NCBI RefSeq assembly: GCF_000382445.1
Contig: NZ_KB905472.1
Location: 1,410,276 to 1,474,275, forward strand
DNA from: Phocaeicola massiliensis B84634 = Timone 84634 = DSM 17679 = JCM 13223
GTDB lineage: Bacteria; Bacteroidota; Bacteroidia; Bacteroidales; Bacteroidaceae
Reading direction: 5' to 3'
DNA: 64,000 nucleotides
The position numbers and the translations under genes were made by a program. Positions 29,755 to 54,901 of the stretch are shown here, in pieces. The notes beneath the pieces were generated by a model that did no database searches, was not told the DNA's origin, and saw nothing but the letters and a program-made list of their open reading frames with translations. How positions within the stretch are numbered: the first letter of the stretch is position 1; each line of letters opens with the position of its first letter.

Positions 29755-29839
29755 AACAAATTGTGTACCAAAAGAGGAGACTCCTATAAATCAATTATTT
29801 CTTTCATTTCTGTCTTTGATTCCTTTTCAAAATGAAAAG
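29755..29839 (-). promoter_or_regulatory. Sigma-54-like promoter and palindromic activator site of kdpD
   Basis: On the minus strand TTGGTACACAATTTGTT (29771-29755) resembles a -24/-12 element (GG, ten bases, GT instead of GC). Upstream of it, CTTTTCAAAATGAAAAG (29823-29839) is a 7+3+7 palindrome identical to the one before the kdp operon at 54885-54901. This arrangement fits an NtrC-type activator binding site. Confidence 0.6.
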
Positions 29840-29908
29840 AATATTGTCAAAATGGAAGGGTAGCGAAGCCTGTTCTTTTTAGAATAAGCGATTAGATATA
29901 TCATCTGA

Positions 29909-30652
29909 TTAATCTTTCGTATAGTTTATCCCGGCTTTTCTAGCTTGCGAATGTTGGAACCGGCGGGCAATGAAATATTCATGACCTTCTTTTAGCAAGC
30001 GATATCCGGTTTGTTTGAACCAAAAATTGATTTTGTTTTCCACTGATTGACGACGAATATCAAGTACCCATTCATAATTGCATATACGAGCTTCTTTACC
30101 TGACTCGCCACCTACAACAATTTGTTCTACCCAAGGACCAAGCTCTCCTCTGAAATCTATTTCTGTTAGCAAAGGCTCGCAAATAATGATTTTATGTTTG
30201 ATGGGAGCCGCCTTGTAGATGGGAAGGCGATAATCTACTCTGTCTTGATTTTCCATAGTACAACAAATAGTTACATTTTCGTATCCTTCTCCCCAGTCAG
30301 ATGGCAAACACTCTTTTAATCTGTCTATGCGTTTGGTGATGAAAAGAAAGTGGAGGTCTTGACGTTTCCGCATCATTTGCCATGCTTCTTCACGCCATTC
30401 ATCGGCTTCTTCAATCAGAAAATCAGAAGTGAAGCAAGTATAGACCAGATTGCCGGGAGGAATTTTATAGGTGTTGTTTCGTTTGCGCTGTATGGGAAAG
30501 TCAAATTTTCCGGTTTTAGTAATGATGGAACTATCTCGACCTCGTTGGCTGTCGCCACGGTAAACGTAACAATGACGACAACCTTCGCTTAACTTGTGGC
30601 AGCCGTGCCAAGGATTCCACATAGAGGAGTTTTTGCTAATATGGTTTTCCAT
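29909..30652 (-). CDS. DUF5131 / phage Gp37-Gp68-like protein
   Basis: A 247-residue protein with WNPWHGCHKLSEGCRHCYVYRG at the N-terminus, a Cys-x6-Cys-x2-Cys cluster reminiscent of radical-SAM iron-sulfur sites. VYTCFTSDFLIEEADEWREEAW and LFITKRIDRLKECLPSDWGE are typical of the DUF5131/Gp37Gp68 family, first noted in phages. The family's activity is undetermined, though a radical-SAM-like fold has been suggested. It stands alone with a start at 30652 and is followed by the kdpD regulatory region. Confidence 0.8.
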   Translation of the reverse strand: MENHISKNSSMWNPWHGCHKLSEGCRHCYVYRGDSQRGRDSSIITKTGKFDFPIQRKRNNTYKIPPGNLVYTCFTSDFLIEEADEWREEAWQMMRKRQDLHFLFITKRIDRLKECLPSDWGEGYENVTICCTMENQDRVDYRLPIYKAAPIKHKIIICEPLLTEIDFRGELGPWVEQIVVGGESGKEARICNYEWVLDIRRQSVENKINFWFKQTGYRLLKEGHEYFIARRFQHSQARKAGINYTKD

Positions 30653-30743
30653 AATTTATGTGTTATGATGACAGGATTATTATTGAAAGCAAAGGTAAGA
30701 TTTATAAGTTGGAAGTAGGTGAATAAAAACTACTATTTTATAG

Positions 30744-30773
30744 TTGTTCTAATTTCCAAAGATAGTATCTTTG
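30744..30773 (+). promoter_or_regulatory. Promoter of the NUDIX gene
   Basis: TTG at 30744-30746 and TATCTTTG at 30766-30773 fit the Bacteroides -33/-7 pattern, 27 bases before the ATG at 30801. Confidence 0.6.
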
Positions 30774-30800
30774 CTTTTCATCCAAATAAAAAGAATCTTT

Positions 30801-31355
30801 ATGGAAAAAGACGATAGAAAATGGGAGATTATTGAAAGTGAATATCTTATCCGCCGCCCTTGGCTGACCGCACGCCGTGACCGGGTTAAACTACCTACAG
30901 GAGTTGAAATTCCTGAATATTATATTTTGGAATATCCTGATTGGGTAAATGTAATTGCTATCACCAAAGAGGGTAAATTTGTATTAGTACGCCAATATCG
31001 TCACGGAATAAAAGAAACACGTTATGAAATTTGCGCCGGAGTTTGTGAAACCGGAGAAGAACCTTTGCTTTCTGCCCAACGTGAATTGTACGAAGAAACA
31101 GGGTATGGCAATGGAAATTGGACAAAACTTATGACCGTTTCAGCAAATGCCAGCACCATGACAAATATCACTCATTGTTATCTGGCTACGGAGGTAGAAC
31201 GAATCTCTACCCAGCATTTGGAAGAAACTGAAGATCTGACAGTGCATTTGCTGGATGAAGAAGAAGTAAAAGCGTTGTTATTGAATGATGAGGTGAAACA
31301 ATCATTGATGGCTGCACCGCTTTGGAAGTATTTTGCTTTATATTCTCGTTTATAA
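30801..31355 (+). CDS. NUDIX hydrolase (ADP-ribose pyrophosphatase-like)
   Basis: Start chosen at ATG 30801 (MEKDDRKWEIIESEYLI) because the upstream in-frame TTG overlaps the -7 promoter box. The 184-residue protein carries the Nudix box in modified form: GVCETGEEPLLSAQRELYEETGYG. WVNVIAITKEGKFVLVRQYRHG is typical of NDP-sugar/ADP-ribose pyrophosphatases. It hydrolyses a nucleoside diphosphate linked to another moiety; the exact substrate is not determinable. A good terminator follows. Confidence 0.88.
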   Translation: MEKDDRKWEIIESEYLIRRPWLTARRDRVKLPTGVEIPEYYILEYPDWVNVIAITKEGKFVLVRQYRHGIKETRYEICAGVCETGEEPLLSAQRELYEETGYGNGNWTKLMTVSANASTMTNITHCYLATEVERISTQHLEETEDLTVHLLDEEEVKALLLNDEVKQSLMAAPLWKYFALYSRL

Positions 31356-31360
31356 TAAAG

Positions 31361-31394
31361 ACTTTTAGGGAGCTTTTTCAGTCTCCCTAAAAGT
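31361..31394. terminator. Terminator after the NUDIX gene
   Basis: ACTTTTAGGGAG (31361-31372) pairs with CTCCCTAAAAGT (31383-31394), just after the NUDIX stop. Confidence 0.65.
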
Positions 31395-31453
31395 AAGTTG
31401 AATCATTTATTCTATTAAACCGAGTTAATCACTTTTTATACTTCTTTGTATCG

Positions 31454-32251
31454 TCATTCGCTCACCTTCTCAGTGAGAATCCTTTTTTTGCAGATAAAGA
31501 ATGCATAGCCATAATATGCTTTATACTTACTATATAGCTCAGCCTCACGATGATTGGATGTTATCAATTCTTCTACGATTCTGCTTCCTGCATGCTTTCT
31601 TCTGAATATTTCCTCGGCTTTAGCTTGAGGAGTGAAATAATGTTCTATCCAGCAATTCTCCGGAAGAATGAATGTCGCAACCGGAATATATCCTGCTTTT
31701 TGTATCTGGGCTACTTTGTTGGGAACCGTATCTATTTCCGTATAAGCACTCATCCAGAAATCATGAATTTCTGCCGGGCGTTGGTCGGTAAACCAGACAC
31801 TTTCAGAAACGGCAAGGTATCCTCCCGGTTTCAAATAGTTGCGCCACTCTTTCAAGCCTCGTTCAAAGCCGATATTATAAATGGCCCCTTCCGACCAGAT
31901 CAAGTCCAAAGAGTCCTTTTCGAAAGAAAGGTCATCCATCGAACCGACTATGCCTTTCACTCTATTCTGGAGATTCAGTTTCTCGGCATTCTTGTTGAAA
32001 CGTTCAATGAATCCCGGGAAAAAGTCGATGCCTGTAATCTTCCCCGGCGCATGTTGTGCCAAGATCATTGTCTGACCCCCTGTTCCACAGCCGAGATCGG
32101 CAATAAGGGATTTGTCGGTAAGATTATCTATAAAGCTTAATGCTTTAAGAGTTACTTCGGGACTTCCGGGGCCTTGTCGCTCCGTATTTAAGAAAAAATC
32201 ACAAATCAAATTTACATCGAATCCTAGAATTGTATTGTTGTCATTATTCAT
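31454..32251 (-). CDS. Class I SAM-dependent methyltransferase
   Basis: A 265-residue methyltransferase. Motif I is [20 protein letters not shown], followed by [40 protein letters not shown] and [16 protein letters not shown]. The substrate is unknown; small-molecule methyltransferases with this layout are common. The last 211 bases of this gene are duplicated at 39732-39942 with three mismatches, so it belongs to a rearranged gene set together with the acetyltransferase and beta-lactamase at 40-41.4 kb. No partner gene is adjacent now. Confidence 0.88.
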
Positions 32252-33008: not shown

Positions 33009-33311
33009 ATGAATTTCATGAAATCGATTTGTGAAAATGCCGTTACAGAACATAGTGTCACATTCTATGTTGATTACTTGTGTGTTTCAACCAAGCACCT
33101 GACTCGATTGACGAAAGAAACGTTTAAACAGACACCCCACGAAATGATATGCAAAGAAATCATTTATCATGCTTTGGACATGTTGGATAATCATGAGATA
33201 AGTATCCGGCAAATATCCGAAGAACTGAATTTTGTAGATATGGCATCTTTCAGCAAATTCTTTAAAAAGCAACCTTTTGATTATTGTTTTGGGTTCGCAG
33301 TACCACATTAA
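33009..33311 (+). pseudogene. Fragment of an AraC-family regulator
   Basis: The frame (100 codons) contains the C-terminal AraC DNA-binding domain: SVTFYVDYLCVSTKHLTRLT, then IYHALDMLDNHEISIRQISE and LNFVDMASFSKFFKKQ. The ligand-binding N-terminal domain is absent, and the usual ending (G-x-x-P-x-x-Y/F-R) is replaced by sequence that is antisense to a glyoxalase fragment. Homology stops near 33272. This is a broken gene created by a rearrangement, although translation as a short HTH peptide cannot be excluded. Confidence 0.75.
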
Positions 33312-33411
33312 AGCCAAGCTGCTGATAAAATTTAACCGTAGTCTCTATATCTATAGTTGGAATACCAATATGTTGTATCCCCATGCAGTAATTATTAATC
33401 AATGTTTCCAT
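33262..33411 (-). pseudogene. N-terminal fragment of a glyoxalase/VOC-family protein
   Basis: Starting at 33411 the frame encodes 49 residues: MGIQHIGIPTIDIETTVKFY then QQLGFNVVLRTQNNNQKVAF and a stop. This is the first beta-alpha-beta unit of vicinal-oxygen-chelate (glyoxalase) proteins, with the metal-binding His in IQHIGIP. The remaining three quarters are missing. Its end coincides with the end of the AraC fragment on the other strand, marking a deletion or inversion junction. Confidence 0.65.
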
Positions 33412-33423
33412 ATATGTTTCCTT

Positions 33424-34149: not shown

Positions 34150-34155
34150 AATCTA

Positions 34156-40461: not shown

Positions 40462-41421
40462 TTAACGATTCCCGGCATATCGGTAAACAGCAGCCGAAAT
40501 ATCAGAGATTATTTTAGCATTCGTTTCCATATTTTCTTTTGAGTCTTTGACAAATACAGCTACTACGTATCGGCTTCCATCAGGTAGAATTACAAAGCCA
40601 ATGTCATTGATGCCAATGTATTCTCCCCGGTCATTCTTATCGGAAGTTCCTGTCTTATGTCCTATCTTGACTTCACTTTCGGGAAGGGGAGCAGGCAGTC
40701 TGTCTTTGCCTGTCCCACACTCTATCATAATATGCTTTAGAAAATCTGTATATTCATTTCTCATGAAATCTTGAGTCATAAAAAGTTCCAATAGATTGGC
40801 TGCTTCCATTGGTGTTGTCCAGTTTTTGTAACAATCATCCATGTCTTGATGCATCTCATCTTCGGTAGCAGTTATGGAAACATCGTTTATTCCCAATGAA
40901 TGAATGTATTCATCCACCACGTTTACACCACCTATATAATCGAATAAGATATCACAGGCTACATTGTCACTTGACTGCATTGTATAAACTAAAAGTTCAC
41001 TAATCGGAAGTTCTAAATTGCCTTGGGGATATTTATCACGCAAAGGGCTGTATGTATCCGGTTTGAAATATTTTTTATCAAGATATAGGGAAGTGGAAAG
41101 TGGAATATGCCGTTTTTGCAGGTAATCACATACAGCCAATGCCTGATGAAACTTATAAACGCTCATCATGGGATATTTTTCGGCATTATTTATGGCCAGC
41201 GTATCTTCTCCATCCAGTATCAAAGCCACTCCTATAGTTGCTTTCTTATCTTTAATAATATGTCGAATTTCTGTTTTTAATGTTTTCAATGAATCTTGGG
41301 ATTTATTCTGAACACATCCGCCAGACAACACACACCATATACATATAATAATATATGGATATCCGTTTTTTGCTAAAGACTGCAAGATTAACCTTGGACT
41401 CCGTTTTTTTGTTATACGCAT
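40462..41421 (-). CDS. Class A beta-lactamase (Bacteroides type)
   Basis: A 319-residue serine beta-lactamase. Active-site SVYK at residues 87-90 (YPMMSVYKFH), SDN at 151-153, a Glu-bearing omega-loop segment (TATEDEMHQD) and KTG at 256-258 (IGHKTGTSDKNDRG) are all present. The hydrophobic N-terminal segment ends CVLSGGC, so it may be a lipoprotein. It belongs with the CfxA/CepA/CblA-type cephalosporinases, but which cannot be fixed by eye. A TTTG-N20-TATCTTCG promoter lies upstream (41472-41441). The first 17 codons are repeated in the scar at 32798-32852. Confidence 0.92.
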   Translation of the reverse strand: MRITKKRSPRLILQSLAKNGYPYIIICIWCVLSGGCVQNKSQDSLKTLKTEIRHIIKDKKATIGVALILDGEDTLAINNAEKYPMMSVYKFHQALAVCDYLQKRHIPLSTSLYLDKKYFKPDTYSPLRDKYPQGNLELPISELLVYTMQSSDNVACDILFDYIGGVNVVDEYIHSLGINDVSITATEDEMHQDMDDCYKNWTTPMEAANLLELFMTQDFMRNEYTDFLKHIMIECGTGKDRLPAPLPESEVKIGHKTGTSDKNDRGEYIGINDIGFVILPDGSRYVVAVFVKDSKENMETNAKIISDISAAVYRYAGNR

Positions 41422-43267: not shown

Positions 43268-43285
43268 GGTTATTTTTTTGTAATG

Positions 43286-45538
43286 TTAGTGGTTTATTAT
43301 CCGTTTTAAAAAATCTATAGCCGATGATAGCTGCCCTTTCAAACCACTTTTCAAGGCTGCTTTCACCACGCTTTTATCTGTCAGCCGTTGTAAAAACGGC
43401 AAGGTGTCTGTCTGTACGGGCAGATTGTAACGTGCACTCTCGGATGCTGTACCAATCTTTACAGTCACAGCAGTAACAGGCAGGGCTTTAAACATATCAT
43501 CATCCGTGGTATCATCTCCCATTGCCAGGATAAAATCATATCGGGTGGCAAGCAAAAGCCTGTTTACTTCTGAACCTTTGGTAAATTCGGGAGATTTTAT
43601 TTCTATCACCTTATTACCTTGCATGATTTGCAAATTCTGTTTCAAGCAAATAGATATCAAGGAATTGACCAACTGTTGTGCACGTAATCTGCCCAACCAT
43701 GCATCGGCCTCACGATAATGCCAGGCAAGTGCCGTTTCTTTGACTTCAAGATGGGAGCGAGGAGTCTTGCTGACAAATAATTTTAATATAGAAAGCAATC
43801 CGGGGCTCCATTCCTGCGCGTGTACATTCTTGTGCCATACACCATTCTCTTTATAAAAGGCCACATGTTCGGCTGCAAAGGAAAGAGGCAGTGCACCCAA
43901 CCATTTCTCTAAAGTAAAATGGTCACGTCCGCTGTTTATTACCACATGATTCAAGGGGTCGGCAGTCAGTTTCTGCAATGTATCCAGCAATTGCGGAGTA
44001 GGAGAGGCATCTTCCGGCCTTTTCTGAAAAGGAACCAGCGTCCCGTCATAATCCAATAAAATCAAACGCTTTTTAGCATGTAAGTATTGATGCTGAATTT
44101 CCTGCATATTCTGTGATCCTATCTTCTTAAGAAGCATGGTTTTGTTTTTATGTGCCACTTCCTGCCATTCATTTACAAAATCGGCAGCCCATTTATTGAC
44201 AGTCTGTACGGATACAATAGACTGCATACGGTGCATCCGTTCTTTCTGTTCTTCAAACGGCATTTCCAATGCCCGGCAAATGGCATTTTCTATCTGCTCC
44301 GTATCATTGGGATTAACCAGTAAGGCGTCGGTCAGTTCCACAGCGGCACCGGCCATTTCACTTAAAACCAATACACCGGGATTGTCTTGCTTGACAGCAA
44401 CATACTCTTTGGCAACCAAGTTCATTCCGTCACGCAAAGGAGTGACTAATGCAATATCAGCTATAAAATACATGGCAGCCAATTCTTCGAATGAAAAACC
44501 ATGATAAAAATAGCAGACCGGAGTCCAGTTCATTGTAGAATATCGTCCGTTGATAGAACCTATTTCCTCGTCAATCCGGGTTTTCAATTCGGCATAACTG
44601 CCTACATGATCACGTGAAGGAACTATGACCATAGCCAGTGTTACCTTGCCATGATATTCGGGATGGTGTTCCAAAAAAGAGGCAAATCCATAAAGACGGT
44701 GCAAAATACCTTTACTATAATCCAAACGGTCTACCGATAGGATAAGTTTATGTTTGCCAAACAAGAGACGGGTTCGTTCTATAGCTTTCCAAACATTTTT
44801 TTGTTGTGACACATTGTGGTAAAGGTCATAATTTATCCCCATCGGAAGTGCATCAACGCGCACAATGCGACTGCCTATCCGGGTTTCATCCAAACTGAAA
44901 TCCATATGGAGTACCCGTTCGGCCGCGCTGATGAAATGACGCATATAGTCATGTGTATGAAATGCGATAAAATCGGCTCCTAACAATCCTTTCAGTATTT
45001 CGGCACGTTCAGGCAGAATTCGGAATAACTCATAAGATGGAAACGGAATGTGATGGAAATAGCCGATATGCAACCGGGGAAGCTCTTGGCGGAGCATTTC
45101 CGGAAGTAACATCAACTGATAATCTTGTACCCAGACCCAATCATCCGGTTCCACAAGGCGGATGATTTCCCGACAAAACAAAGCGTTAACCTCTTGGTAA
45201 GATTGCCAGAAACTCTTTCTATATAATGTATAGGCAAAGAAATAGTGGCATAAAGGCCACAGGGTACTGTTACTGTATCCCTCATAATAGTTCTTATATT
45301 GCTCATCGGATAAAAATATGGGATGGAGATTCATTTCCTCCAACCGGTGACAGATATCCTGTTTTTCTTCCTCTTTGTCTGTACAGATTCCGGGCCACCC
45401 CACCCAATGTTTCTCGTAATTGCCTTGTAGGGAATTTAGGCCCGTTGTCAGACCTCCTTCACTACGTGAGAAAACAAAGGTATCTTTTTCTGCGACAGCC
45501 TTCACGGGCAGTCTGTTTGATATGATATACAATTTCAT
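43286..45538 (-). CDS. otsA/otsB: Fused trehalose-6-phosphate synthase/phosphatase
   Basis: Start at 45538 (MKLYIISNRLPVKAVAEKDT). The 750-residue protein has an OtsA (GT20) domain first: EGGLTTGLNSLQ, DWVWVQDYQLMLLPEMLRQE, HIGYFHHIPFPSYELFRILP, SVDRLDYSKGI and TPLRDGMNLVAKEYVA. A HAD-type OtsB domain follows from about residue 500: LILLDYDGTLVPFQKRPEDA and LAMGDDTTDDDMFKAL. It makes trehalose from UDP-glucose and glucose-6-phosphate via trehalose-6-phosphate. Operon with the GH15 gene. Upstream palindromes and a -24/-12-like element suggest stress-linked control. Confidence 0.95.
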   Translation of the reverse strand: MKLYIISNRLPVKAVAEKDTFVFSRSEGGLTTGLNSLQGNYEKHWVGWPGICTDKEEEKQDICHRLEEMNLHPIFLSDEQYKNYYEGYSNSTLWPLCHYFFAYTLYRKSFWQSYQEVNALFCREIIRLVEPDDWVWVQDYQLMLLPEMLRQELPRLHIGYFHHIPFPSYELFRILPERAEILKGLLGADFIAFHTHDYMRHFISAAERVLHMDFSLDETRIGSRIVRVDALPMGINYDLYHNVSQQKNVWKAIERTRLLFGKHKLILSVDRLDYSKGILHRLYGFASFLEHHPEYHGKVTLAMVIVPSRDHVGSYAELKTRIDEEIGSINGRYSTMNWTPVCYFYHGFSFEELAAMYFIADIALVTPLRDGMNLVAKEYVAVKQDNPGVLVLSEMAGAAVELTDALLVNPNDTEQIENAICRALEMPFEEQKERMHRMQSIVSVQTVNKWAADFVNEWQEVAHKNKTMLLKKIGSQNMQEIQHQYLHAKKRLILLDYDGTLVPFQKRPEDASPTPQLLDTLQKLTADPLNHVVINSGRDHFTLEKWLGALPLSFAAEHVAFYKENGVWHKNVHAQEWSPGLLSILKLFVSKTPRSHLEVKETALAWHYREADAWLGRLRAQQLVNSLISICLKQNLQIMQGNKVIEIKSPEFTKGSEVNRLLLATRYDFILAMGDDTTDDDMFKALPVTAVTVKIGTASESARYNLPVQTDTLPFLQRLTDKSVVKAALKSGLKGQLSSAIDFLKRIINH

Positions 45539-45568
45539 TTTTATGTAATTCTTTTTTTCAGTTAGATG

Positions 45569-45845
45569 ACAAAAGTCATACCACCAACTTAAATATCTTA
45601 TTATCAATATGGTATATACTTGTTGATTAGTTTATACTTTTTCAATATGAAAGCCTTTTTTCTAAAATGGGAAATGAAATAGCCGAAAGATAAAAGTGCA
45701 ATTTTTGTAATGGCATCGATTTTGATTTATATAGAGTATAACGCTATCAACTTATAGAAAAGGTAGCGAGCAAACAATAATAAACAACTGATTAACAAAT
45801 TAATAAAGATGAAACTAGTAAGAATATAGCTTTCCAATATGGAAA
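45569..45845. promoter_or_regulatory. Shared upstream region of otsA/otsB and the aspartokinase-like gene
   Basis: The 360-base gap has no gene. It contains several dyads with a CA-ATA-TG core: TATCAATATGGTA (about 45602-45614), TTTCAATATGAAA (45640-45652) and TTTCCAATATGGAAA (45831-45845). These resemble the kdp palindrome TTTTCAAAATGAAAA. Sigma-54-like elements: TGGTATGACTTTTGT on the minus strand (45583-45569) and TGGCATCGATTTTGAT on the plus strand (45711-45726); both deviate from GG-N10-GC in the last pair. Confidence 0.4.
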
Positions 45846-45898
45846 TTTGCCTGTTAAAATGAAAAAGAAACTCCAAAAGAATAAAATGCAATACAAAA

Positions 45899-47245
45899 AT
45901 GAAAGTATATAATTTAGAAAATATTAAATCTGCTGCCGAACTGAAACATCGGACTGAAGCAATTAGTATGAACGAACGTTCTATTATAGTGCTCGACACT
46001 TTTACCGGCATTGCCCAAAAGCTGCAAGCTGTTTCTATTTCTTTATTCCATCTCGATATCGAAAAGGTTATGAATCAATTGCAGGATTTCGAGAATGATT
46101 GTGGAAATTGGCTGGACAATCTTCTTTCCTCCGAAATGCAGAAAGCAGAAGCTGCCAAAGAAATAAAAGTACACATCAATCAAATTTCCCGTTTATGTAA
46201 TGAAAATCCGAACATCATTGACGATCATGAGATTATGGCTCACGGAGCAATGATATCCTCTCTTATTCTGTCACATTATTTAGAAGAATGTACGAAAAAG
46301 AACTTCATCTTGAACTCATGTCATTTCATGCGACTAGGGCTTGATCGGAAACCGGATATAAAGTATGTGAAAAAAAATGTAGAAGAACTGATGAAAGACT
46401 GTCCCGATGTTCCCATTCTTATTACCCAAAGCCGTTTGTGTAAAAATGCATATGATGAAGTGGATTTCTTCCCACAAATAGGAAATGAGTATTATGCCAC
46501 TGTTATCGGGGCTGTATTCCATGCGGATGAAATTATAACATCCTTACGTTCTGATGAAATTTGTTTCCGAGGTATGGAACATACTCGGACTCTTACATAC
46601 GGTGAAGCCGAGAATTTTATTGATAGCGGCATTGCATTGCTTCATCCGGAATGTATTCCGCTGGCGCGCACCGTCGGTATGGCCATTGTATTGATAAAAA
46701 CACCGGAAGATACATTACGGATATCATCAGAAAAAACAGGAACAAAAGTAAAAGCTGCTGTTTCACGCAGAGGTGTGGTCTTTGTCAAACTTCGTTCGTT
46801 GGGGGTTCTTACTTCTTATCTATTTATAGGCAAAGTATTTGATGTGTTCGAGAAATATAAGGTTCCTGTCTATTTAGCGACTTCCTCTAATGTGAGTGTT
46901 TCATTGGCTGTGAAATGTAGCAACGACACATTACGCCTGATATATCGTGAATTACATAAGTATGCGGAAATAGGAATGGAAACAGAAATGTCTGTGGTCA
47001 GCGTTATTGGCGATCTAAATTGGGAAAAGCATACAGGGTTGGAAGCCAGAATTATAGAAACGCTGAAAGAGATGCCGGTATGTATGATTTCATACGGCAG
47101 CAGTACTCACAATCTTTCAGTGCTGGTACGGGAACAAGATAGAGAAAAGGCATTAATGACACTGTGCAAAGCCTTTCTGGATATTCCATCAGAAAAATTT
47201 GATGTAATAAAACAAACTCAATTACAAGACTCTTTTGTCATGTGA
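45899..47245 (+). CDS. Degenerate aspartokinase-like protein with ACT domains
   Basis: A 448-residue protein aligned by eye with aspartokinases: SIIVLDTFTGIAQKLQAVSI (for VVSAMSGVTN), IGNEYYATVIGAVFHADEII (for GRGGSDxTAxxLAxxLxADE), RTLTYGEAENFIDSGIALLH PECI, and two C-terminal ACT modules (RSLGVLTSYLFIGKVFDVFE; SVVSVIGDLNWEKHTGLEAR). The N-terminal KFGGTS phosphate loop, the GRGGSD motif and the DVDG motif are all missing, so aspartate phosphorylation is unlikely. A regulatory or ligand-sensing role is inferred. It stands alone with its own terminator. Confidence 0.75.
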   Translation: MKVYNLENIKSAAELKHRTEAISMNERSIIVLDTFTGIAQKLQAVSISLFHLDIEKVMNQLQDFENDCGNWLDNLLSSEMQKAEAAKEIKVHINQISRLCNENPNIIDDHEIMAHGAMISSLILSHYLEECTKKNFILNSCHFMRLGLDRKPDIKYVKKNVEELMKDCPDVPILITQSRLCKNAYDEVDFFPQIGNEYYATVIGAVFHADEIITSLRSDEICFRGMEHTRTLTYGEAENFIDSGIALLHPECIPLARTVGMAIVLIKTPEDTLRISSEKTGTKVKAAVSRRGVVFVKLRSLGVLTSYLFIGKVFDVFEKYKVPVYLATSSNVSVSLAVKCSNDTLRLIYRELHKYAEIGMETEMSVVSVIGDLNWEKHTGLEARIIETLKEMPVCMISYGSSTHNLSVLVREQDREKALMTLCKAFLDIPSEKFDVIKQTQLQDSFVM

Positions 47246-47263
47246 CCTTCCTGAATAAACAGA

Positions 47264-47296
47264 AGCAACAAATTTGCCCGACAGGTATTTGTTGCT
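47264..47296 (+). terminator. Terminator of the aspartokinase-like gene
   Basis: AGCAACAAAT (47264-47273) pairs with ATTTGTTGCT (47287-47296), followed by TTTGTTTTTG. Confidence 0.75.
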
Positions 47297-47474
47297 TTTG
47301 TTTTTGATTAAATAATTCTTTCCCTTATAAACAAAACAGACATATGGTTGATTACCAGTCCTGAATAACCTTTTAAAATAGTTGCTGTTATCCATTCTTA
47401 ACTTTAATACAGAACAGGAGATAATAAAATGGATTTAAAGCAAACAAAGAACATCTCTGTTAAAATACTTTTTG

Positions 47475-47482
47475 TATATTTG
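47475..47482 (+). promoter_or_regulatory. -7 box of the CAT-like gene
   Basis: TATATTTG, 74 bases before the ATG at 47557. The leader between them is AT-rich without other features. Confidence 0.5.
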
Positions 47483-47556
47483 CAACAATACGTTTTATCG
47501 TTAAAATAGTTGTAACAGAAATAATACACATAAAAGAAAAACAGAGTAAATAGAAA

Positions 47557-48192
47557 ATGAAGCGAGTTATTAATCTGGACAATTGGAATAGAAAAGAGCA
47601 TTTTAAATTCTTCTCGGCTCTCGATGACCCTTTTTGGGGAATTACCACGACTGTTGATTTCACAAGCATATATCAACAAAGTAAAAATATGGAAGTTTCT
47701 TTTTTTCTTTATTCTGTGCACTTCCTATTGAAATGTATCAATGCGACTACTGCATTCAAATTACGTATAGAAAACGGAGAAGTAGTAGAATATGATAAAA
47801 TCAATATTTCGCCCACTATCGGAAGAGAGGACGGAACTTTCGGCTTTGGATTTTTTGAGTATGACACAGATCTTTCCTTATTTATTGAAAATGCAGAAAA
47901 GGAAATACATAGAGTAAAAAACAGTACCGGACTTTCTTTTTCCAAGGACACAGCAAGAGCGGATGTCATCCGTTATTCGGCTCTGCCCTGGTTTGCCTTT
48001 TCCGAGATGAAACATGCCGGTTCAATTCAAACAGGAGATTCTATACCCAAAATTTCCACAGGTAAGCTGATACAAGAAAAAAAGAAACTTTTGCTTCCTA
48101 TATCCATCAGTGTCCACCATGGCTTGGTGGATGGACGAAATGTTGCTGAATTTATACAGAACGTAAAAGACGGACAAAATAATACATTATGA
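47557..48192 (+). CDS. Chloramphenicol-acetyltransferase-like O-acetyltransferase
   Basis: A 211-residue CatA-type acyltransferase. The catalytic His motif is LPISISVHHGLVDGRNVAEF (HHxxxDG). The N-terminus (VINLDNWNRKEHFKFFSALD DPF-type) and FSKDTARADVIRYSALPWFAF also match the CAT fold. It lies on the chromosome without a mobile element next to it. Similar Bacteroidetes proteins are often annotated as CAT, but resistance is not proven by sequence. A HAD phosphatase gene follows after 36 bases. Confidence 0.85.
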   Translation: MKRVINLDNWNRKEHFKFFSALDDPFWGITTTVDFTSIYQQSKNMEVSFFLYSVHFLLKCINATTAFKLRIENGEVVEYDKINISPTIGREDGTFGFGFFEYDTDLSLFIENAEKEIHRVKNSTGLSFSKDTARADVIRYSALPWFAFSEMKHAGSIQTGDSIPKISTGKLIQEKKKLLLPISISVHHGLVDGRNVAEFIQNVKDGQNNTL

Positions 48193-48228
48193 TATGATTG
48201 CTCTCTCTTCCTATTCTAATAATAAAAC

Positions 48229-48918
48229 ATGAAAAATAAAATAGAATTTATCGCTTTTGATGCCGATGACACTCTTTGGGAAAATGAACTTTATTTTCAA
48301 GAGTTGGAACACAAATTTTGTCATCTTCTGAGGAAATATTCACCGGCTCCTTCCGTATCAGAAGAATTGTTCAAGACAGAAATAAAAAATCTGCATATCT
48401 ATGGTTATGGACTGAAAGGAATGCTGCTTTGCATGATTGAAACCATTTGCAAAGTTATTAATGGAGAAGGAGACCTCAATCTCGTAAAAGAAATCCTCCG
48501 TTCAGGTCAGGAACTTCTGCAAAGACCAATCACATTATTGGACGGTGTGCAAGAAGTCATATCAGCCTTGCACGAAAATTATAAATTAGTATTGGCCACC
48601 AAAGGTGATTTGTTCGATCAAAAAAGAAAGATTTCTGCGTCCGGATTACAAGAATACTTTTGCCACATAGAAATAATGAGCGACAAGAAAAATGCGGATT
48701 ATAAAAGATTGCTTGATCATTTAGGGTGTAAGGCAGAAAATTTACTGATGATAGGTAATTCGATAAAGTCGGATATTATTCCCATATTGGAACTCGGAGG
48801 TTATGCAGCCTATGTACCTCATCATGTCACTTGGGCACACGAACAATACGAAGGAGAAGTAACGCACTCCCACTTTATTAAGTTGAATAACATTAAAGAG
48901 ATACAAAACTATCTTTAG
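48229..48918 (+). CDS. HAD-family hydrolase
   Basis: A 229-residue phosphatase-like protein. Motif I is IEFIAFDADDTLWENELYFQ with both Asp residues, motif II VLATKGD, and the late motif LLMIGNSIKSDIIPILELGG (GNSxKSD). A helical cap lies between motifs I and II. Substrate unknown. It is 36 bases after the CAT-like gene and likely in its transcript. Confidence 0.88.
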   Translation: MKNKIEFIAFDADDTLWENELYFQELEHKFCHLLRKYSPAPSVSEELFKTEIKNLHIYGYGLKGMLLCMIETICKVINGEGDLNLVKEILRSGQELLQRPITLLDGVQEVISALHENYKLVLATKGDLFDQKRKISASGLQEYFCHIEIMSDKKNADYKRLLDHLGCKAENLLMIGNSIKSDIIPILELGGYAAYVPHHVTWAHEQYEGEVTHSHFIKLNNIKEIQNYL

Positions 48919-49021
48919 TTTTTGCCATACTCCATTCTCCACGTGGTAACTCTTTGAACAAAAATACCACGTCCGGCAAGACTCAAAAAAGGATAAGTCA
49001 CTCTATACAACAAAAAAGGGT

Positions 49022-49159
49022 TGTCAAAACGTGGATAATGCTGTCGTTTCGTTCGTAGGGGCGAGGTTCGCTCGCCCGAAAACAGTTTGCTTTGTGTCTT
49101 CGGGCAGGCAAACCCTGCCCCTACAGTTGACGATTGGATAGTCCGGTTTCGTTTTGACA
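49022..49159. repeat. MITE/REP-like nested inverted repeat, about 140 bp
   Basis: Outer arms TGTCAAAACG (49022-49031) and CGTTTTGACA (49150-49159) enclose an inner pair, GTAGGGGCGAGGTTCGCTCG... and ...GGGCAGGCAAACCCTGCCCC TAC, about 26 bases each with five mismatches. GC-rich arms of the type GTAGGGGCAGGGTTTGCCTG are common dispersed repeats in Bacteroidales genomes. It lies just past the porin gene at the end of the kdp operon. Confidence 0.7.
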
Positions 49160-49186
49160 CTTCCTTTTGTTAAAAAAATCACATAT

Positions 49187-49888
49187 TTAAAACCCAATAC
49201 TTAATCCGGCTATCAGATAAGTTTTGTCAAATGAGGGCGAAACAATAGCCTGTACAAACAAAGGCAAAGAAAAATGATCTGTAATATTAATGTTCTTGGA
49301 AGCTTTTAGAGCAATATCTGTAAAAGCAGCACCATCAGCATCATACATTCCTTTCCAAGGAGTGAAACCAACGGAAGGAGTGAGCGTAATTTCTGCCGGG
49401 CAAGCAATATTATAAGAAGCATTGATATAAGTGGAATAAGCACGATCACCGTCTTTGTTATCGTCTCCTCCCGCAAACATGGTAGACCAACTCAAGGTCA
49501 GAGGAAAGTTCTCGCCGAAATTATAAGCTAATGTTCCTTCAAAATGATGATCATGTTTATAATCCCCGTAGGGCATGGTGATGCCATTCCACCAATAGTC
49601 GGTCACTGTAATACCTAAACCGCCAATGGTATAACTCAAATTGATGTCAAACTCTTGTGCACCGTCTGTCTTGGTCAGGCTCTGACTCCCCCAAGCAGAC
49701 AAAGAAAGATTGCCGTAAGATAATCCTAATGTAGGCTGTACAGAAAATCCTGAATTCTGGTAAGCGCCACGCCAAATGTAATCACTTACAAAATCCGCCT
49801 TAGCCGTTACGTTAAATTCTTGTGCTTTTATCACTCCAGGCAACAGTAAAGCCAGCACCAAGACCACTTTTTTCAAATTCTTTTTCAT
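49187..49888 (-). CDS. Kdp-linked outer-membrane porin-like protein (TorF/Gcw_chp-like)
   Basis: A 233-residue protein with a signal peptide (VVLVLALLLPGVIKAQ) and a beta-rich body. FNVTAKADFVSDYIWRGAYQ matches the start of TorF-type putative porins (SDYIxRG). The C-terminus TYLIAGLSIGF ends with Phe, as outer-membrane barrels do. It is the last gene of the kdp cluster and may provide ion passage across the outer membrane, or sense envelope state; both are inference. Paralogous to 33424-34149. Confidence 0.75.
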   Translation of the reverse strand: MKKNLKKVVLVLALLLPGVIKAQEFNVTAKADFVSDYIWRGAYQNSGFSVQPTLGLSYGNLSLSAWGSQSLTKTDGAQEFDINLSYTIGGLGITVTDYWWNGITMPYGDYKHDHHFEGTLAYNFGENFPLTLSWSTMFAGGDDNKDGDRAYSTYINASYNIACPAEITLTPSVGFTPWKGMYDADGAAFTDIALKASKNINITDHFSLPLFVQAIVSPSFDKTYLIAGLSIGF

Positions 49889-50017
49889 CTTAAAAAATTA
49901 AACTAATCAATATTCGTGTTTTACATATTTCTACTATTTCCTTCTTATTGTCTGAAAGGAAATATCCATTTTGAGTTTTTCTGAATCAAGATGCATCATT
50001 CAATAGGGTGATGCACG

Positions 50018-50122
50018 TCAAAGATCAAGAATCCATGTTATCAAAGCAAAGAACAATACAATGATAGCCACAGCTTCTAGAGCCGACAGACTCTCGGTAT
50101 CCAGGAAACTTCTCTTTTTCAT
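50018..50122 (-). CDS. 34-residue single-helix membrane protein between kdpC and the porin
   Basis: ATG at 50122 to TGA at 50018. The product begins MKKRSFLDTESLSALEAVAI and continues into a hydrophobic helix ending TWILDL. A basic N-terminus followed by one helix gives an inner-membrane protein with N-terminus inside. It is in the right strand and place for the kdp transcript. No family recognised; it may be a small regulatory or stabilising subunit, or the partner of the porin. Confidence 0.6.
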   Translation of the reverse strand: MKKRSFLDTESLSALEAVAIIVLFFALITWILDL

Positions 50123-50161
50123 GACGCACATCTTCCTAATTTAATGACTATATATTTTTTA

Positions 50162-50731
50162 TTATTTTGCCTTTTCTAAAGCAGCATTCAGTTTTAACAC
50201 ATTCACCTTCTCTGTTCCGAATATGCCCATAAACGGTTTTTCCACAGCTTTATCTACAATAGCTTTTACAGTTTCCTCACTCATTCCGCGAGCTTTAGCC
50301 ACACGTTGTACCTGCACGTATGCGCAGGCCGGAGTGATGTCAGGATCCAGCCCGGAACCGCTGGCTGTGACCATTTCGGCAGGTACTTCCTTACGGCTCA
50401 AGTAAGGATGATGCTTTAAAAATGTATCAATCCGCGCTTCTACTTCAGCCAGATACTCCTCATTGGTAGGACCTTTATTGCTACCGGCTGAACTAGCCGC
50501 ATCATAACCTTCACCGGCACATGAAGGACGTCCCCAGAAATAGATATCTTCCGTAAATGATTGTCCCACATTGGCTGCACCTACCACTTTTCCGTTAAGT
50601 TCCACCACCTCGGCATTGCCGGAATTAGGTCCGGCAAACTGAGCGAAAATCCATAAGACTAGTATATAGCATACTGAGAAAAACACACAAAAGACTAAGG
50701 TCAGTCTGAATGACTTTATAAAATTTTTCAT
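50162..50731 (-). CDS. kdpC: Potassium-transporting ATPase subunit KdpC
   Basis: A 189-residue subunit with one N-terminal membrane helix (LVFCVFFSVCYILVLWIFAQ) and a periplasmic domain containing GKVVGAANVGQSFTEDIYFW GRPS, LDPDITPACAYVQVQRVAKA and NVLKLNAALE, all KdpC hallmarks. KdpC stabilises the KdpFABC complex and helps ATP binding. It starts 13 bases after kdpB. Confidence 0.96.
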   Translation of the reverse strand: MKNFIKSFRLTLVFCVFFSVCYILVLWIFAQFAGPNSGNAEVVELNGKVVGAANVGQSFTEDIYFWGRPSCAGEGYDAASSAGSNKGPTNEEYLAEVEARIDTFLKHHPYLSRKEVPAEMVTASGSGLDPDITPACAYVQVQRVAKARGMSEETVKAIVDKAVEKPFMGIFGTEKVNVLKLNAALEKAK

Positions 50732-50744
50732 TGTCGTTTACTTG

Positions 50745-52778
50745 TTAAAAGAATAATCCTACTACTAAATCTATTAATTTAATACCCACAAAAGGAGCAA
50801 TAACACCACCTATGCCATATATCAAAAGATTACGACGAAGCAAGGCGGAAGCTCCTATCGGTTTGTATTGAACTCCTTTCAATGCCAGCGGAATCAGAAT
50901 AGGAATAATGACGGCATTGAATATAACCGCAGACAAGATAGCACTCTCAGGGCTATGCAGCCCCATAATATTCAATGCAGCCAGTTCCGGAATGGAAAGC
51001 ATGAACAATGCAGGAACAATGGCAAAATATTTGGCCACATCATTGGCTATGGAGAAAGTGGTCAGTGTACCACGTGTCATCAGCAATTGTTTACCTATCT
51101 CGACAATCTCTATCAGCTTGGTAGGATCATTATCCAAATCCACCATATTCCCTGCTTCCTTGGCAGCCTGTGTACCGCTATTCATGGCAACCCCCACATT
51201 AGCTTGGGCAAGGGCAGGAGCATCATTTGTTCCGTCACCCATCATGGCAACCAGTTTGCCGGCAGCCTGCTCTTTCTTGATATACTCCATCTTATCCTCC
51301 GGTTTAGCCTCGGCTATGAAGTCGTCTACTCCGGCTTTCTCTGCAATATATTTGGCGGTCAATGGGTTATCTCCCGTCACCATGACTGTTTTTACCCCCA
51401 TCTTGCGTAAACGTTCAAAACGTTCCTGAATACCCGGTTTTATGATATCCTGCAATTCTATTACTCCGGCAATTTTCTTATTGACACTTACCACCAATGG
51501 AGTACCTCCATTACTTGTAATGGTTTGAATGATATCTTCCGTTTCTTTTGGGAAAGGGTTTCCGGCAGACAAGGCTATCTTGCGGATCGCATCAAATGCA
51601 CCTTTACGGATTTCTGTTCCATCCTTCAAGTTAATACCCGAGCATTTGGTTTCGGCGGTAAATTTTATCATATGAGCACCATCGGTATTCAAATTACGCA
51701 TCCGTAAACCCGATTCACGTCCCAGTTCAATAATAGATTTGCCTTCCGGAGTATCATCAGATACAGATGAGAGCAGGCAGGCTTCGATGAAAGCATGTTC
51801 ATCCACTCCCTGAGCCGGATAAAAACGGGTAGCTTTACGGTTTCCTATAGTTATTGTTCCTGTTTTATCAAGAAGCAACGTATCTATGTCTCCGGCTGTT
51901 TCCACTGCTTTACCCGATTTGGTTATGACATTGGCACGCAAAGCACGATCCATCCCGGCGATACCGATAGCCGAAAGCAATCCTCCGATAGTGGTAGGAA
52001 TGAGGCAGACAAACAAGGACAGAAAAGAAGCAATGGTAATGACAGTTCCCGTATAATCGGCAAACGGTTTAAGGGTGATACACACAATGACAAAGACCAA
52101 TGTAAATGCTGCCAACAGGATAGTCAATGCAATTTCATTCGGTGTTTTCTGGCGGGATGCGCCTTCCACCAATGCAATCATCTTATCCAGGAAACTTTCA
52201 CCCGGCTGGGTGCTTACCATTACTTTTATCTGATCGGACAATACTTTTGTACCTCCTGTTACTGAACTCTTGTCACCGCCTGCTTCACGGATTACAGGAG
52301 CGGATTCGCCTGTGATGGCACTTTCGTCAATAGACGCCAGTCCTTCGATGATCTCGCCATCGGCAGGAATTACATCTCCTGCCTCGCATACAAAAATATC
52401 ACCTTTCTTTAACCGGGAACTACTGACAGTTTTCAAAGTCCCGTTCACAATCAATTTGGCAGGGGTTTCCTCACGAGTCTTCCTCAGGCTATCGGCTTGT
52501 GCTTTTCCGCGCGCTTCGGCAATAGCTTCAGCAAAATTAGCAAATAACAAGGTGATGAACAGGATTACGAAAACCCATAAATTATAAATAAATGAGCCTT
52601 GTGAATCATTAACGATAGAGTAGAGCATCACCAAGAACATAATAGCTGTACAAACCTCTACCGTGAACATAATCGGATTCTTAATCATCACTCGCGGATT
52701 CAACTTCACGAATGATTGTTTTATGCTGTCAATAACTTGCTCCTTCTGAAATAAAGAAGCTGATTTATTATCTTTCAT
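50745..52778 (-). CDS. kdpB: Potassium-transporting ATPase subunit KdpB
   Basis: A 677-residue P-type ATPase subunit. The phosphorylated Asp is in [17 protein letters not shown], the actuator loop is [15 protein letters not shown] (TGES), and the hinge region [19 protein letters not shown] is complete. [10 protein letters not shown] and [20 protein letters not shown] are typical of KdpB. It drives high-affinity K+ uptake with KdpA. It starts 33 bases after kdpA. Confidence 0.97.
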
Positions 52779-52811
52779 ATCTTCTATTAATATCGTTGTC
52801 TGTTATCAGAA

Positions 52812-54518
52812 TTATAAACTCAAATGCTCGGCAATAGTGCTTAATGCATGTACCGGGAAGAATGATAGTGCGGCAACAATAAAAATAACCGCAAATGTCA
52901 TCACACCGAATGTCACTGTATCGGTTTGCAATGTGCCGGCGCTTTCGGGAATAAATTTTTTCTTAGCCAGAATACCTGCTATGGCCACTTGACCTACAAT
53001 CGGGACAAAACGTCCTAATATCAGCACAATACCACAAGAGTAGTTCCAAAACCATGTGTTATCACCCAGTCCTTCAAAACCGGAACCATTATTGGCGGCA
53101 CACGAGGTGTATTCATAAAGCATTTCACTCAGACCATGATATCCGGGATTGTTCAGCCAGCCACCTTCACTTTCCACAAATGCAGGCGCATGAACAAACA
53201 GATAAGCAGCCAATGCCGTACCAACTAAAATGATAAACGGATGAAGTAGTGCCACAATGGAAGCAATCTTCATTTCACGTGCTTCTACTTTATGACCAAG
53301 GAACTCCGGTGTACGGCCTACCATCAACCCACTGATGAACACGGCGATAATAATAAATGTAAAGTAGTTCATCCATCCCACACCTACACCGCCAAACCAT
53401 GTGTTGATCTGCATGTTCAGCATTTCCATCATACCCGAAAGCGGCATTGTTGAATCGTGCATACCATTGACAGAACCATTGGAAGTAACCGTAGTAGTAA
53501 TACTCCACAAAGCAGTGGCGGCCGAGCCCAAACGTATTTCTTTACCTTCCATCGCGCCATTATCCTGCGCTATCCCCATTTCGTCAATACGTGGATTACC
53601 ACCCATCTCCTGACTCACATTGATACAAACTCCTACCAGATAGGCAAACAGCATGACACCATATATACTATAACCCAATTTTTTACGTTTCAGATAGAAA
53701 CCGAATGCAAATGCCATCGCCATAGGTATGATAAGGATAGACCAACATTCCACCATATTGGCAAAATAGGTAGGGTTCTCCAATGGATGAGAAGAGTTTA
53801 CACCAAAATAACCACCACCATTAGTACCCAATTGTTTGATAGGGACAATAGCCGCCGTAGGGCCTTGTGATACATATTGTGTAGCTCCTTCCATGGTGGT
53901 CACCTTCATTTTTCCGTCAAAGCCCATCGGAGTTCCTTGCACAATCAGGATAAAGCCTACGACCAATGAAAGAGGCAACAGGACACGGGTACAACTTAAT
54001 ACCAAATAGTTCCAGAAATTGCCAATAGTCTGAGTAGTCTTTGCAGCCAGCGCTTTCATTATACCTGCCATGGCAGCCATACCGGTAGCGGCAGTAATAA
54101 ACTGAAAGAGCATGATGACGAATAGCTGAGTAAAATAAGTCAGCCCACTTTCACCGCTATAATGTTGCAAGTTGCAGTTCACCATGAAACTGATACAAGT
54201 ATTGAATGCCTGATGCGCAGTCTGACCGACATTTCCATCCGGGTTAAGCGGTAGCACACCTTGTGTAACCAACAGTACCATCCCCCAAAGGAACCAAAAT
54301 AGATTTACCACCAGCAAGGCTCTCAAAAACTGTTTCCAGTTCATCTCCTCATTGGGATTGATACCACTCAGTTTGAACATAACCCGTTCAACGGGCTTCA
54401 TAAAATCCGACCAAGTCTTTTCACCTTTATAAACTTTAGCGATATATTTGCCCAAAGGATAGCTGAGCACTACCATTAAGACAATTTGCGCTATAACACC
54501 TAAAACTTCAGTATTCAT
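52812..54518 (-). CDS. kdpA: Potassium-transporting ATPase subunit KdpA
   Basis: A 568-residue channel-like subunit with about ten membrane helices. Filter-type segments TAHQAFNTCISFMVNCNLQH, LGTNGGGYFGVNSSHPLENP, ATALWSITTTVTSNGSVNGM and SCAANNGSGFEGLGDNTWFW are the four pore loops of KdpA. It selects and passes K+ within the Kdp pump. Positioned between kdpF and kdpB as in other kdp operons. Confidence 0.97.
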   Translation of the reverse strand: MNTEVLGVIAQIVLMVVLSYPLGKYIAKVYKGEKTWSDFMKPVERVMFKLSGINPNEEMNWKQFLRALLVVNLFWFLWGMVLLVTQGVLPLNPDGNVGQTAHQAFNTCISFMVNCNLQHYSGESGLTYFTQLFVIMLFQFITAATGMAAMAGIMKALAAKTTQTIGNFWNYLVLSCTRVLLPLSLVVGFILIVQGTPMGFDGKMKVTTMEGATQYVSQGPTAAIVPIKQLGTNGGGYFGVNSSHPLENPTYFANMVECWSILIIPMAMAFAFGFYLKRKKLGYSIYGVMLFAYLVGVCINVSQEMGGNPRIDEMGIAQDNGAMEGKEIRLGSAATALWSITTTVTSNGSVNGMHDSTMPLSGMMEMLNMQINTWFGGVGVGWMNYFTFIIIAVFISGLMVGRTPEFLGHKVEAREMKIASIVALLHPFIILVGTALAAYLFVHAPAFVESEGGWLNNPGYHGLSEMLYEYTSCAANNGSGFEGLGDNTWFWNYSCGIVLILGRFVPIVGQVAIAGILAKKKFIPESAGTLQTDTVTFGVMTFAVIFIVAALSFFPVHALSTIAEHLSL

Positions 54519-54544
54519 AACTCTTTATTTCTTAACTTACTTTT

Positions 54545-54625
54545 TTAAAACTTCTCCGGCTTGATGAGAACATACATCATATAGCCGAACATAATCAAAC
54601 TAACTACAAATAATGCTGTGTACAT
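54545..54625 (-). CDS. kdpF: KdpF, 26-residue Kdp subunit
   Basis: ATG at 54625, TAA at 54545. The peptide MYTALFVVSLIMFGYMMYVL ends IKPEKF, matching the classic KdpF ending (L-x-K/R-P-E-x-F) after one membrane helix. A strong ribosome site AGGAG lies 10 bases before the ATG, unusual for this genome. KdpF stabilises the KdpABC complex. It precedes kdpA by 26 bases. Confidence 0.9.
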   Translation of the reverse strand: MYTALFVVSLIMFGYMMYVLIKPEKF

Positions 54626-54647
54626 AACTTGTTTCTCCTTTCTTTTT

Positions 54648-54746
54648 TTAGATCTTCTCGAACCAGTCTATGCATTTAAAGAAAAGCCAAAAGCAAGCTA
54701 TGCCGCTCAAGGTACAAACTACAAATCCGATTGAAAATAAATCCAT
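54648..54746 (-). CDS. 32-residue membrane protein upstream of kdpF
   Basis: ATG at 54746, TAA at 54648. The product begins MDLFSIGFVVCTLSGIACFW and continues LFFKCIDWFEKI: one membrane helix with two or three Cys and an aromatic, charged tail. It is the first gene after the sigma-54-like promoter, so leads the kdp transcript. Not recognised; a second accessory peptide of the pump is plausible. Confidence 0.6.
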   Translation of the reverse strand: MDLFSIGFVVCTLSGIACFWLFFKCIDWFEKI

Positions 54747-54791
54747 AATTCCTTTTTTTTAATTAATACTATTGTTAACTGTCACGTTATA

Positions 54792-54807
54792 TGCCAATAG
54801 TGTGCCA
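54792..54807 (-). promoter_or_regulatory. Sigma-54 promoter of the kdp operon
   Basis: The minus strand reads TGGCACACTATTGGCA, a full GG-N10-GC match to the -24/-12 consensus, 46 bases before the first small gene. Confidence 0.75.
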
Positions 54808-54884
54808 AAGAAAAAACATGTAATGTATATACTTGTAAAACAGAATAATGCAATAAATCAGGAAGTAAAAGGAGAGGAGTATAC

Positions 54885-54901
54885 CTTTTCAAAATGAAAA
54901 G
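54885..54901. promoter_or_regulatory. Palindromic activator site upstream of kdp
   Basis: CTTTTCAAAATGAAAAG, a 7+3+7 palindrome, about 80 bases upstream of the sigma-54 element, the usual distance for an NtrC-type activator. Identical to 29823-29839 before kdpD. Confidence 0.7.

Follow-up and report, generated by a model that had tools for sequence, protein, structure and literature searches.

A candidate sigma-54-dependent potassium-limitation regulon that would join dispersed kdp units in Phocaeicola massiliensis

The Kdp genes of Phocaeicola massiliensis raise the question of whether a potassium-uptake system whose parts are scattered along the chromosome can still be controlled as one regulon. 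We analyzed a stretch of 64,000 nucleotides (hereafter the window, C1:1410276-1474275) within a genome of 4,646,209 bases, in which the kdp operon stands apart from the genes for a KdpD-like sensor protein (kdpD-N) and a separate histidine kinase. Upon comparison of the window with related genomes, whose loci and assemblies carry L and G numbers below, these units appear to form one regulon for potassium limitation, governed by sigma-54 and an enhancer-binding response regulator of NtrC type, a reading to which we assign a probability of about 0.85. The layout of palindromes and promoters is almost certainly real; the regulator very probably acts through it at kdp, nearly as probably at kdpD-N, and likely, with less assurance, at the trehalose gene otsBA. 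The original prediction had placed an identical 17-bp palindrome, CTTTTCAAAATGAAAAG, and sigma-54-like promoters before both Kdp units. The elements found there, and the regulator gene, were as follows:

54885-54901, no strand: main kdp operator palindrome, centred on 54893, at 86 bp from the -24 T
54906-54924, no strand: second, degenerate kdp palindrome TCTTCCTGTTTTGATATTG (written for the minus strand), 22 bp further upstream, own score only -1.1
54792-54807, minus: kdp -24/-12 element TGGCACACTATTGGCA, retained when four Phocaeicola are aligned, P. faecalis showing one change
29823-29839, no strand: main kdpD-kinase operator palindrome, centred on 29831, at 61 bp from the -24 T
29842-29860, no strand: second kdpD palindrome TATTGTCAAAATGGAAGGG, 20 bp further upstream, matrix score 11.3
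29755-29770, minus: kdpD -24/-12-like element TGGTACACAATTTGTT, with GT at -12; the P. faecalis copy has one change
56595-57944, minus: NtrC-type response regulator, the proposed activator, with receiver, sigma-54 AAA+ (GSFTGA) and Fis-type helix-turn-helix domains

The palindrome CTTTTCAAAATGAAAAG has 7-bp arms, CTTTTCA and TGAAAAG, around AAA, and is palindromic save for these three central bases. It was found exactly twice in the genome, at the two Kdp loci and at both predicted positions. It was not widespread either when mismatches were admitted: with up to two, only two further places appeared (L003 and L004), against five for the reversed control pattern, and these were set aside because the control yields as many or more. 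A gapped form, CTTTTCANNNTGAAAAG, also matched only the two Kdp places in this genome, and among 81 genomes P. faecalis (G062) had two copies, before kdpA and before kdpD. When the pattern was loosened to CYTTYCANNNTGRAARG and one mismatch was allowed, 35 places were recovered in the genome versus 16 for the control; three were perfect, and the third of these (L154) was dropped because it lies inside open reading frames. We also scored sites with a matrix trained without Phocaeicola sequences (the L021 site was included in the training). Positions 29822 and 54884 ranked at the top of the window with 22.3, followed by 15.2 at a place upstream of otsBA, and in 834,740 bases of relatives no position away from the kdp, kdpD and regulator genes reached 20 or more.

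The kdp promoter was then compared across relatives. We gathered 80 KdpA loci, nearly all from Bacteroidales by title, giving 81 with the window; L028, L056, L061 and L066 were dropped because their upstream DNA was too short, leaving 77 regions (76 loci plus the window). The CA/TG core letters were retained in 148 of 154 half-sites. A second palindrome was sought 12-45 bp to either side of the main one, and the best candidate lay 19-22 bp away in 71/77 regions (64 upstream, 7 downstream); it scored above 0 in 60 regions, 56 of them at this spacing. The -24/-12 elements were scored against TGGCAC-N5-TTGCW, with GG and GC 10 bp apart, a maximum of 15 and a cut-off of 12. The kdp element of the window matches this sigma-54 consensus with 13.5, and a score of at least 12 was obtained in 49 of the 77 regions, with 47 elements 85-89 bp from the palindrome centre and a further two at 105-109 bp. 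Of 20,000 random 140-bp stretches drawn from the window, 918 reached 12. Both elements described in the original prediction, TGGCACACTATTGGCA and TGGTACACAATTTGTT, are present, the latter with GT rather than GC at -12. Much of the kdp promoter region has diverged between the window and P. vulgatus, with the palindromes and the -24/-12 element retained, and the CCTGTTTTGATATT core of the second palindrome is kept in P. vulgatus, P. sartorii and P. faecalis. In more distant regions (the best 20 besides the window, from 57 genomes with a kdpD-N match out of 198), a palindrome scoring at least 8 was present within 900 bp upstream of kdpA in 19. The primary-sigma promoters of Bacteroides differ from those of E. 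coli. For this reason, a scan for E. coli-type sigma-70 promoters, which gave one weak match per region, near the shuffled expectation, is weak evidence.

We next asked what might bind these sites. The predicted NtrC-type regulator was borne out by its domains (PF00072, PF00158 and PF02954) and by GSFTGA in its translation; a sulfatase gene lies between it and kdp, and one rpoN match was found in the genome. In the examined kdp loci, the response regulator linked to kdp is of NtrC type; 62 of the 81 loci, the window counted, encode it within their fetched DNA. These 62 were used for a covariation analysis, with the helix unread in one. The recognition helix of the regulator, which we take from its likeness to Fis to be ..G[L/I/V][T/A]TLYRK, carries either T or A at one position. 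Where it is T (43 loci), A occupies position 4 in 73 of the 86 half-sites; where it is A (18 loci), position 4 is T or G in all 36 and never A, the site being in each case the best-scoring palindrome under a matrix dominated by the common type. When distant Bacteroidota loci were added, minus 10 without a readable helix and one with a weak site, A was found in 74/90 half-sites for helix T versus 1/50 for helix A. On a tree built without the helix-turn-helix region, we counted 5 changes in the helix residue and 13 in the operator class. This covariation is the best evidence here that the palindrome would be the site of the regulator. On its other side, the regulator gene is divergent from a gene for a glycine betaine/proline-type ATP-binding cassette transporter ATPase (58110-59336, plus), an osmotic neighbourhood.

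The second Kdp unit comprises two genes:

28596-29720, minus: kdpD-N, 374-residue protein with the KdpD sensor domain but no kinase domain, PF02702 only
27118-28584, minus: separate histidine kinase (HAMP-PAS-HisKA-HATPase); the listed open reading frame extends to 28737, and 28584 is the likely start

The earlier calls of the kdp genes, the kinase and the regulator were confirmed; what had been named kdpD, instead, encodes the sensor part without a kinase domain, so that the canonical one-protein KdpD kinase is here divided between two open reading frames. The best match of kdpD-N was to NF038185, a non-kinase potassium sensor family, at 347.7 bits, below the cut-off of 550. The gene was present in the fetched DNA of 71 of the 81 loci; L028, L051, L056, L058, L060, L061 and L084 were left out of the sample, and L005-L007 were fetched separately. 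We scored the 350 bp upstream of each copy and counted a palindrome of at least 8 as a site, a value that random 350-bp stretches reached in 51 of 2,226. In 57/71 loci, kdpD-N directly follows kdpC or the porin gene, and none of these 57 attached copies had a site, the highest score being 6.1. Detached copies numbered 17, 14 of them in the 71-locus set and one each in P. faecalis, P. vulgatus and P. sartorii, and nine had a site directly upstream with scores from 12.3 to 26.5: the window, these three species, L016, L017, L021, L031 and L055. In L021 (Prevotella bivia), a single palindrome stands between the divergent kdpA and kdpD. Eight of the 14 showed no site within 350 bp; in six of them (L009, L011-L014 and L026), paired sites with best scores of 8.6 to 27.6 precede the gene ahead of kdpD, within about 150 bp of its start, although these were looked for post hoc, after the 350-bp test had missed them. 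A site, direct or via the preceding gene, was thus found for 15 of the 17 detached copies, and the remaining two lie in same-strand kdp operons. The cases are not all independent, since L011, L012 and L014 are nearly identical and L009 and L013 are close; G062 also shares coordinates with the genome of L007, as do G336 with that of L005, G303 with that of L006, and G327 with that of L010. The gene preceding kdpD-N in the same unit encodes a potassium transporter, TrkH by Pfam, in L009 and L026, and we take it to be trkH also in L011, L012, L013 and L014 from its position and sequence.

The kdpD palindrome lies 61 bp from its promoter in both the window and P. faecalis and 62 bp from it in P. 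vulgatus, and the P. vulgatus and P. sartorii promoters align poorly with that of the window outside the sites. In L008 (Paraprevotella) and L010 (an uncultured Phocaeicola), kdp, the porin gene, otsBA, the trehalase gene, kdpD and the kinase gene follow one another on one strand with short gaps, the trehalose genes lying between the porin gene and kdpD; no site was found in L008 within the same-strand stretch before kdpD. Because kdpD-N is attached in 57 of 71 loci and otsBA-trehalase lies between in two relatives, we infer by majority that an ancestral cluster was broken up in this lineage and that the detached pieces have their own operator and promoter. The expectation that the scattered parts still form one regulon is supported by this comparison (0/57 attached copies with a site; 9/17 detached copies directly and six via the preceding gene), as well as by the restriction of the exact palindrome to the Kdp loci here, the near-fixed spacing to the sigma-54-like elements and the covariation with the regulator helix.

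A third candidate target is formed by the trehalose genes:

45637-45655, no strand: candidate weaker third operator CTTTTTCAATATGAAAGCC, centred on 45646, at 63 bp from the -24 T, score 15.2
45568-45583, minus: otsBA -24/-12-like element TGGTATGACTTTTGTC with GT at -12, found by the composite pattern
43286-45538, minus: otsBA, bifunctional trehalose-6-phosphate synthase/phosphatase, NF011071 above cut-off
41480-43267, minus: GH15 trehalase-like gene after otsBA, PF00723/PF19291, NF041084 below cut-off

A degenerate second site, read by eye, is centred at about 45666, roughly 20 bp further out. The composite pattern of palindrome plus promoter was found genome-wide at kdp, at kdpD and at 45637-45655 (in both directions), and the reversed control gave one place. 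Among 28 chosen genomes searched for otsBA itself, 10 had a match, repeats of one assembly included; P. sartorii and P. faecalis had none in this search. Away from kdp, the otsBA of Parabacteroides gordonii, on a contig other than that of kdpA, has paired sites (24.6 and 12.1) 20 bp apart with TGGCATACCCTTTGCC 86 bp from the nearer one; that of G613, about 560 kb from its kdpA, has paired sites (23.6 and 16.9) with an element 77 bp away; and that of Coprobacter, also on a contig other than that of kdpA, has weaker sites (8.3 and 3.9) 19 bp apart. The composite scan of 393 genomes of the order returned six places versus two in the control, of which two were at kdpA, one at the otsBA of G613, and three without a kdp or ots match; in 61 Phocaeicola genomes it returned six, all upstream of kdpA by coordinates. 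Operon membership in L008 and L010, together with promoters away from kdp in three genomes, raises otsBA above a chance match. Next to the otsBA palindrome, a further element, TGGCATCGATTTTGAT, is directed on the plus strand toward the aspartokinase gene; it has no GC at -12 and was set aside. In L182, L183 and L189, the -24 element of otsBA begins about 27 bp ahead of the start codon, so that the transcript would be nearly leaderless. Between the two Kdp parts there are also a gene for a class A (subclass A2) beta-lactamase (40462-41421, minus) and one for a CatA-like acetyltransferase, below the NCBIfam cut-off (47557-48192, plus).

Several observations weigh against a regulon of this extent. 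At kdp, 28 of the 77 regions had a -24/-12 score below 12. CTTTTCANNNTGAAAAG also turned up once in each of seven further genomes among the 81, at loci where no Kdp gene was matched, a chance-like rate (control, six places). The regulator gene has no operator in its own upstream region, and L076, L134 and L150 (helix T with no A in either half-site) and L152 are discordant in the covariation. At kdpD, the promoter score was 11.5, with GT at -12 and below the cut-off, as was that of otsBA at 10.5, and the palindrome lies 61-63 bp from the promoter at these two units versus 86 bp at kdp. The P. sartorii kdpD element reads TGGTATATTCTTTGTC, and the best-scoring element lay elsewhere. L058 has no kdpD in the fetched 10 kb, a locus not cut by a contig end, and the L010 gap holds two weak places, 10.3 inside otsBA and 8.3 just before it. 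Background reaches a matrix score of 12 at 14 positions per 834,740 bases. The otsBA operator is modest, with scores of 15.2 in the window and G288 and 12.4 in P. vulgatus, the promoters being near-identical; the otsBA homologues of L185 and L186 (55-58% identity) have no site; and the otsBA match taken alone is not beyond chance, because the composite control also gives one place.

Among the rival explanations, the least improbable is that kdp alone is a genuine target, the sites at kdpD and otsBA being relics or products of chance. It draws on the weaker GT at -12 of both promoters and on the otsBA site being, by the controls, within chance when taken alone. However, the kdpD palindrome is kept in four Phocaeicola despite the poor alignment of the P. 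vulgatus and P. sartorii promoters outside the sites, it is also found at detached kdpD units of other genera, and other genera carry the site, its tandem copy and a -24/-12 element at an otsBA away from kdp. We therefore consider this explanation improbable.

A little less probable still is that some other transcription factor, such as an osmotic or global regulator, binds the palindrome and that the NtrC-type regulator acts elsewhere, as might be thought from the sulfatase gene that parts the regulator gene from kdp and from the lack of a site at the regulator gene. Against this, the regulator helix covaries with the half-site; moreover, sigma-54 promoters require an enhancer-binding protein, and one of NtrC type is encoded in the same locus in most cases, as counted above. 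Finally, the palindromes might serve as intrinsic terminators for the gene before them. Such a role would account as well for their presence where units separate and would fit the five or more T within 14 nucleotides after the palindrome in 18/77 loci and the palindromes that are the apex of a longer inverted repeat (e.g., L067). It is very unlikely given the core letters conserved in nearly all half-sites, the near-fixed spacing to the -24 element, the covariation with the regulator helix and the P. bivia palindrome placed where neither gene ends, and it was rejected for the window, where the kdp and kdpD sites showed no T-run or terminator-like match. In some relatives, termination may be a second role of the palindrome.

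Returning to the sigma-54 regulon, its working can be sketched as follows. The KdpD-like protein would sense low potassium and control the separate kinase, which, judging from the conserved linkage, would phosphorylate the NtrC-type regulator. The regulator would bind the tandem TTYCANNNTGRAA palindromes, about two helical turns apart, as the covariation suggests, and by DNA looping would open sigma-54 RNA polymerase at -24/-12 promoters 61-86 bp away. Its targets here would be kdpFABC with the micropeptide and porin genes, kdpD-N with the kinase gene, and possibly otsBA-trehalase, and control of kdpD-N and the kinase by the same regulator would create feedback on the sensor. The kdp operon consists of the following genes:

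54648-54746, minus: 32-residue hydrophobic micropeptide gene MDLFSIGFVVCTLSGIACFWLFFKCIDWFEKI, the first open reading frame past the promoter, ahead of kdpF
54545-54625, minus: kdpF, PF09604 above cut-off, TIGR02115 just below cut-off
52812-54518, minus: kdpA, PF03814 and TIGR00680
50745-52778, minus: kdpB, TIGR01497
50162-50731, minus: kdpC, PF02669
49187-49888, minus: outer-membrane protein, weakly TorF-porin-like, TIGR02001 below cut-off, no Pfam match

All subunits of a KdpFABC potassium ATPase (A, B, C and F) were thus identified, and the TorF-like porin gene sits after kdpC in the window and in many relatives. The micropeptide open reading frame, with its C-x-x-WF signature, was present in 73/78 kdpA loci of the main set and in 0/20 more distant loci, and had no Pfam or NCBIfam match at E 0.01; it may encode an accessory subunit of Kdp that has yet to be named. 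The KdpA proteins of the window and P. vulgatus are 100% identical, and the stretch 42914-54930, from part of the trehalose genes to kdp, is 98.5-99% identical to this species, as compared with about 80% on the regulator side, where identity to P. faecalis is 88%. This stretch resembles an import that ends close to the kdp promoter, its left limit being only the end of the fetched locus. The kdpA promoter stretches of Hallella bergensis and two Hoylesella species (L011, L012 and L014) are identical, suggesting recent transfer or mislabelled assemblies.

In E. coli, control is exerted by a one-piece KdpD kinase and the OmpR-type KdpE at a sigma-70 promoter. The two systems are alike in that kdpFABC would be induced on potassium limitation through the KdpD sensor domain; in the window, by contrast with E. 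coli, the KdpD protein lacks a kinase domain, the kinase is encoded by a gene of its own, the regulator is of NtrC type and the promoters are sigma-54-like. The regulator shares its receiver, sigma-54 AAA+ and Fis-type domains with the NtrC, NtrX and AtoC types, although the best 25 of 109 NCBIfam matches were all below their cut-offs, and it differs from them in its proposed operator TTYCANNNTGRAA and potassium-related targets. The claim that an NtrC/sigma-54 Kdp circuit is a different design holds with respect to E. coli. It is not unprecedented: two papers on the sulfate reducer Desulfovibrio vulgaris Hildenborough describe such a design, which is therefore already in print outside Bacteroidota. 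There, DVU3334 is reported to regulate its own operon with kdpFABC and the kinase is split into DVU3336 (potassium sensor and UspA) and DVU3335 (PMC3333781); DVU3334 is counted among the regulators that depend on sigma-54, with its GAFTGA and a target operon for potassium uptake (PMC4641369). Its orthologues were reported only in D. vulgaris Miyazaki and S. fumaroxidans (PMC3333781, PMC4641369). When gene content is set against this published description, DVU3334-DVU3339 resemble the window in the split KdpD, the kinase and the NtrC-type regulator serving kdp. In D. vulgaris, however, the regulator and sensors lie inside the kdp operon, and two other response regulators also target it, whereas the window has its parts dispersed, with detached units under an operator and promoter of their own, and otsBA (trkH too in relatives) is a possible addition. 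We found no account of sigma-54 control of kdp in Bacteroidota in the literature covered, which excluded most subscription journals, and a 2025 survey of sigma-54 regulons mentions neither kdp nor potassium in its main text (PMC12316311).

Taken more widely, we hold it somewhat better than an even chance that, across the Bacteroidia, a three-protein relay (sensor, kinase and activator) senses potassium starvation and fires sigma-54 promoters through a tandem-palindrome enhancer. On this reading, the relay would control potassium import (kdp, joined by trkH in certain lineages), trehalose metabolism and its own sensor, and the regulon would outlast the dispersal of its genes, each dispersed unit keeping or gaining an operator that coevolves with one position of the regulator helix. 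Kdp is the textbook case of KdpDE and sigma-70, and a version in gut Bacteroidales built on sigma-54 and an enhancer would give a tight, ATP-gated switch. With the regulator, its proposed operator and a candidate specificity residue named, the regulator-DNA code becomes directly testable, and the lineage offers a worked example of a gene cluster that would have dispersed while its regulation was kept. If otsBA is a true target, potassium uptake and trehalose synthesis would belong to one regulon, which bears on how gut bacteria meet osmotic and ionic stress; and if the three-protein relay works as proposed, ion and compatible-solute responses would be shared within it.

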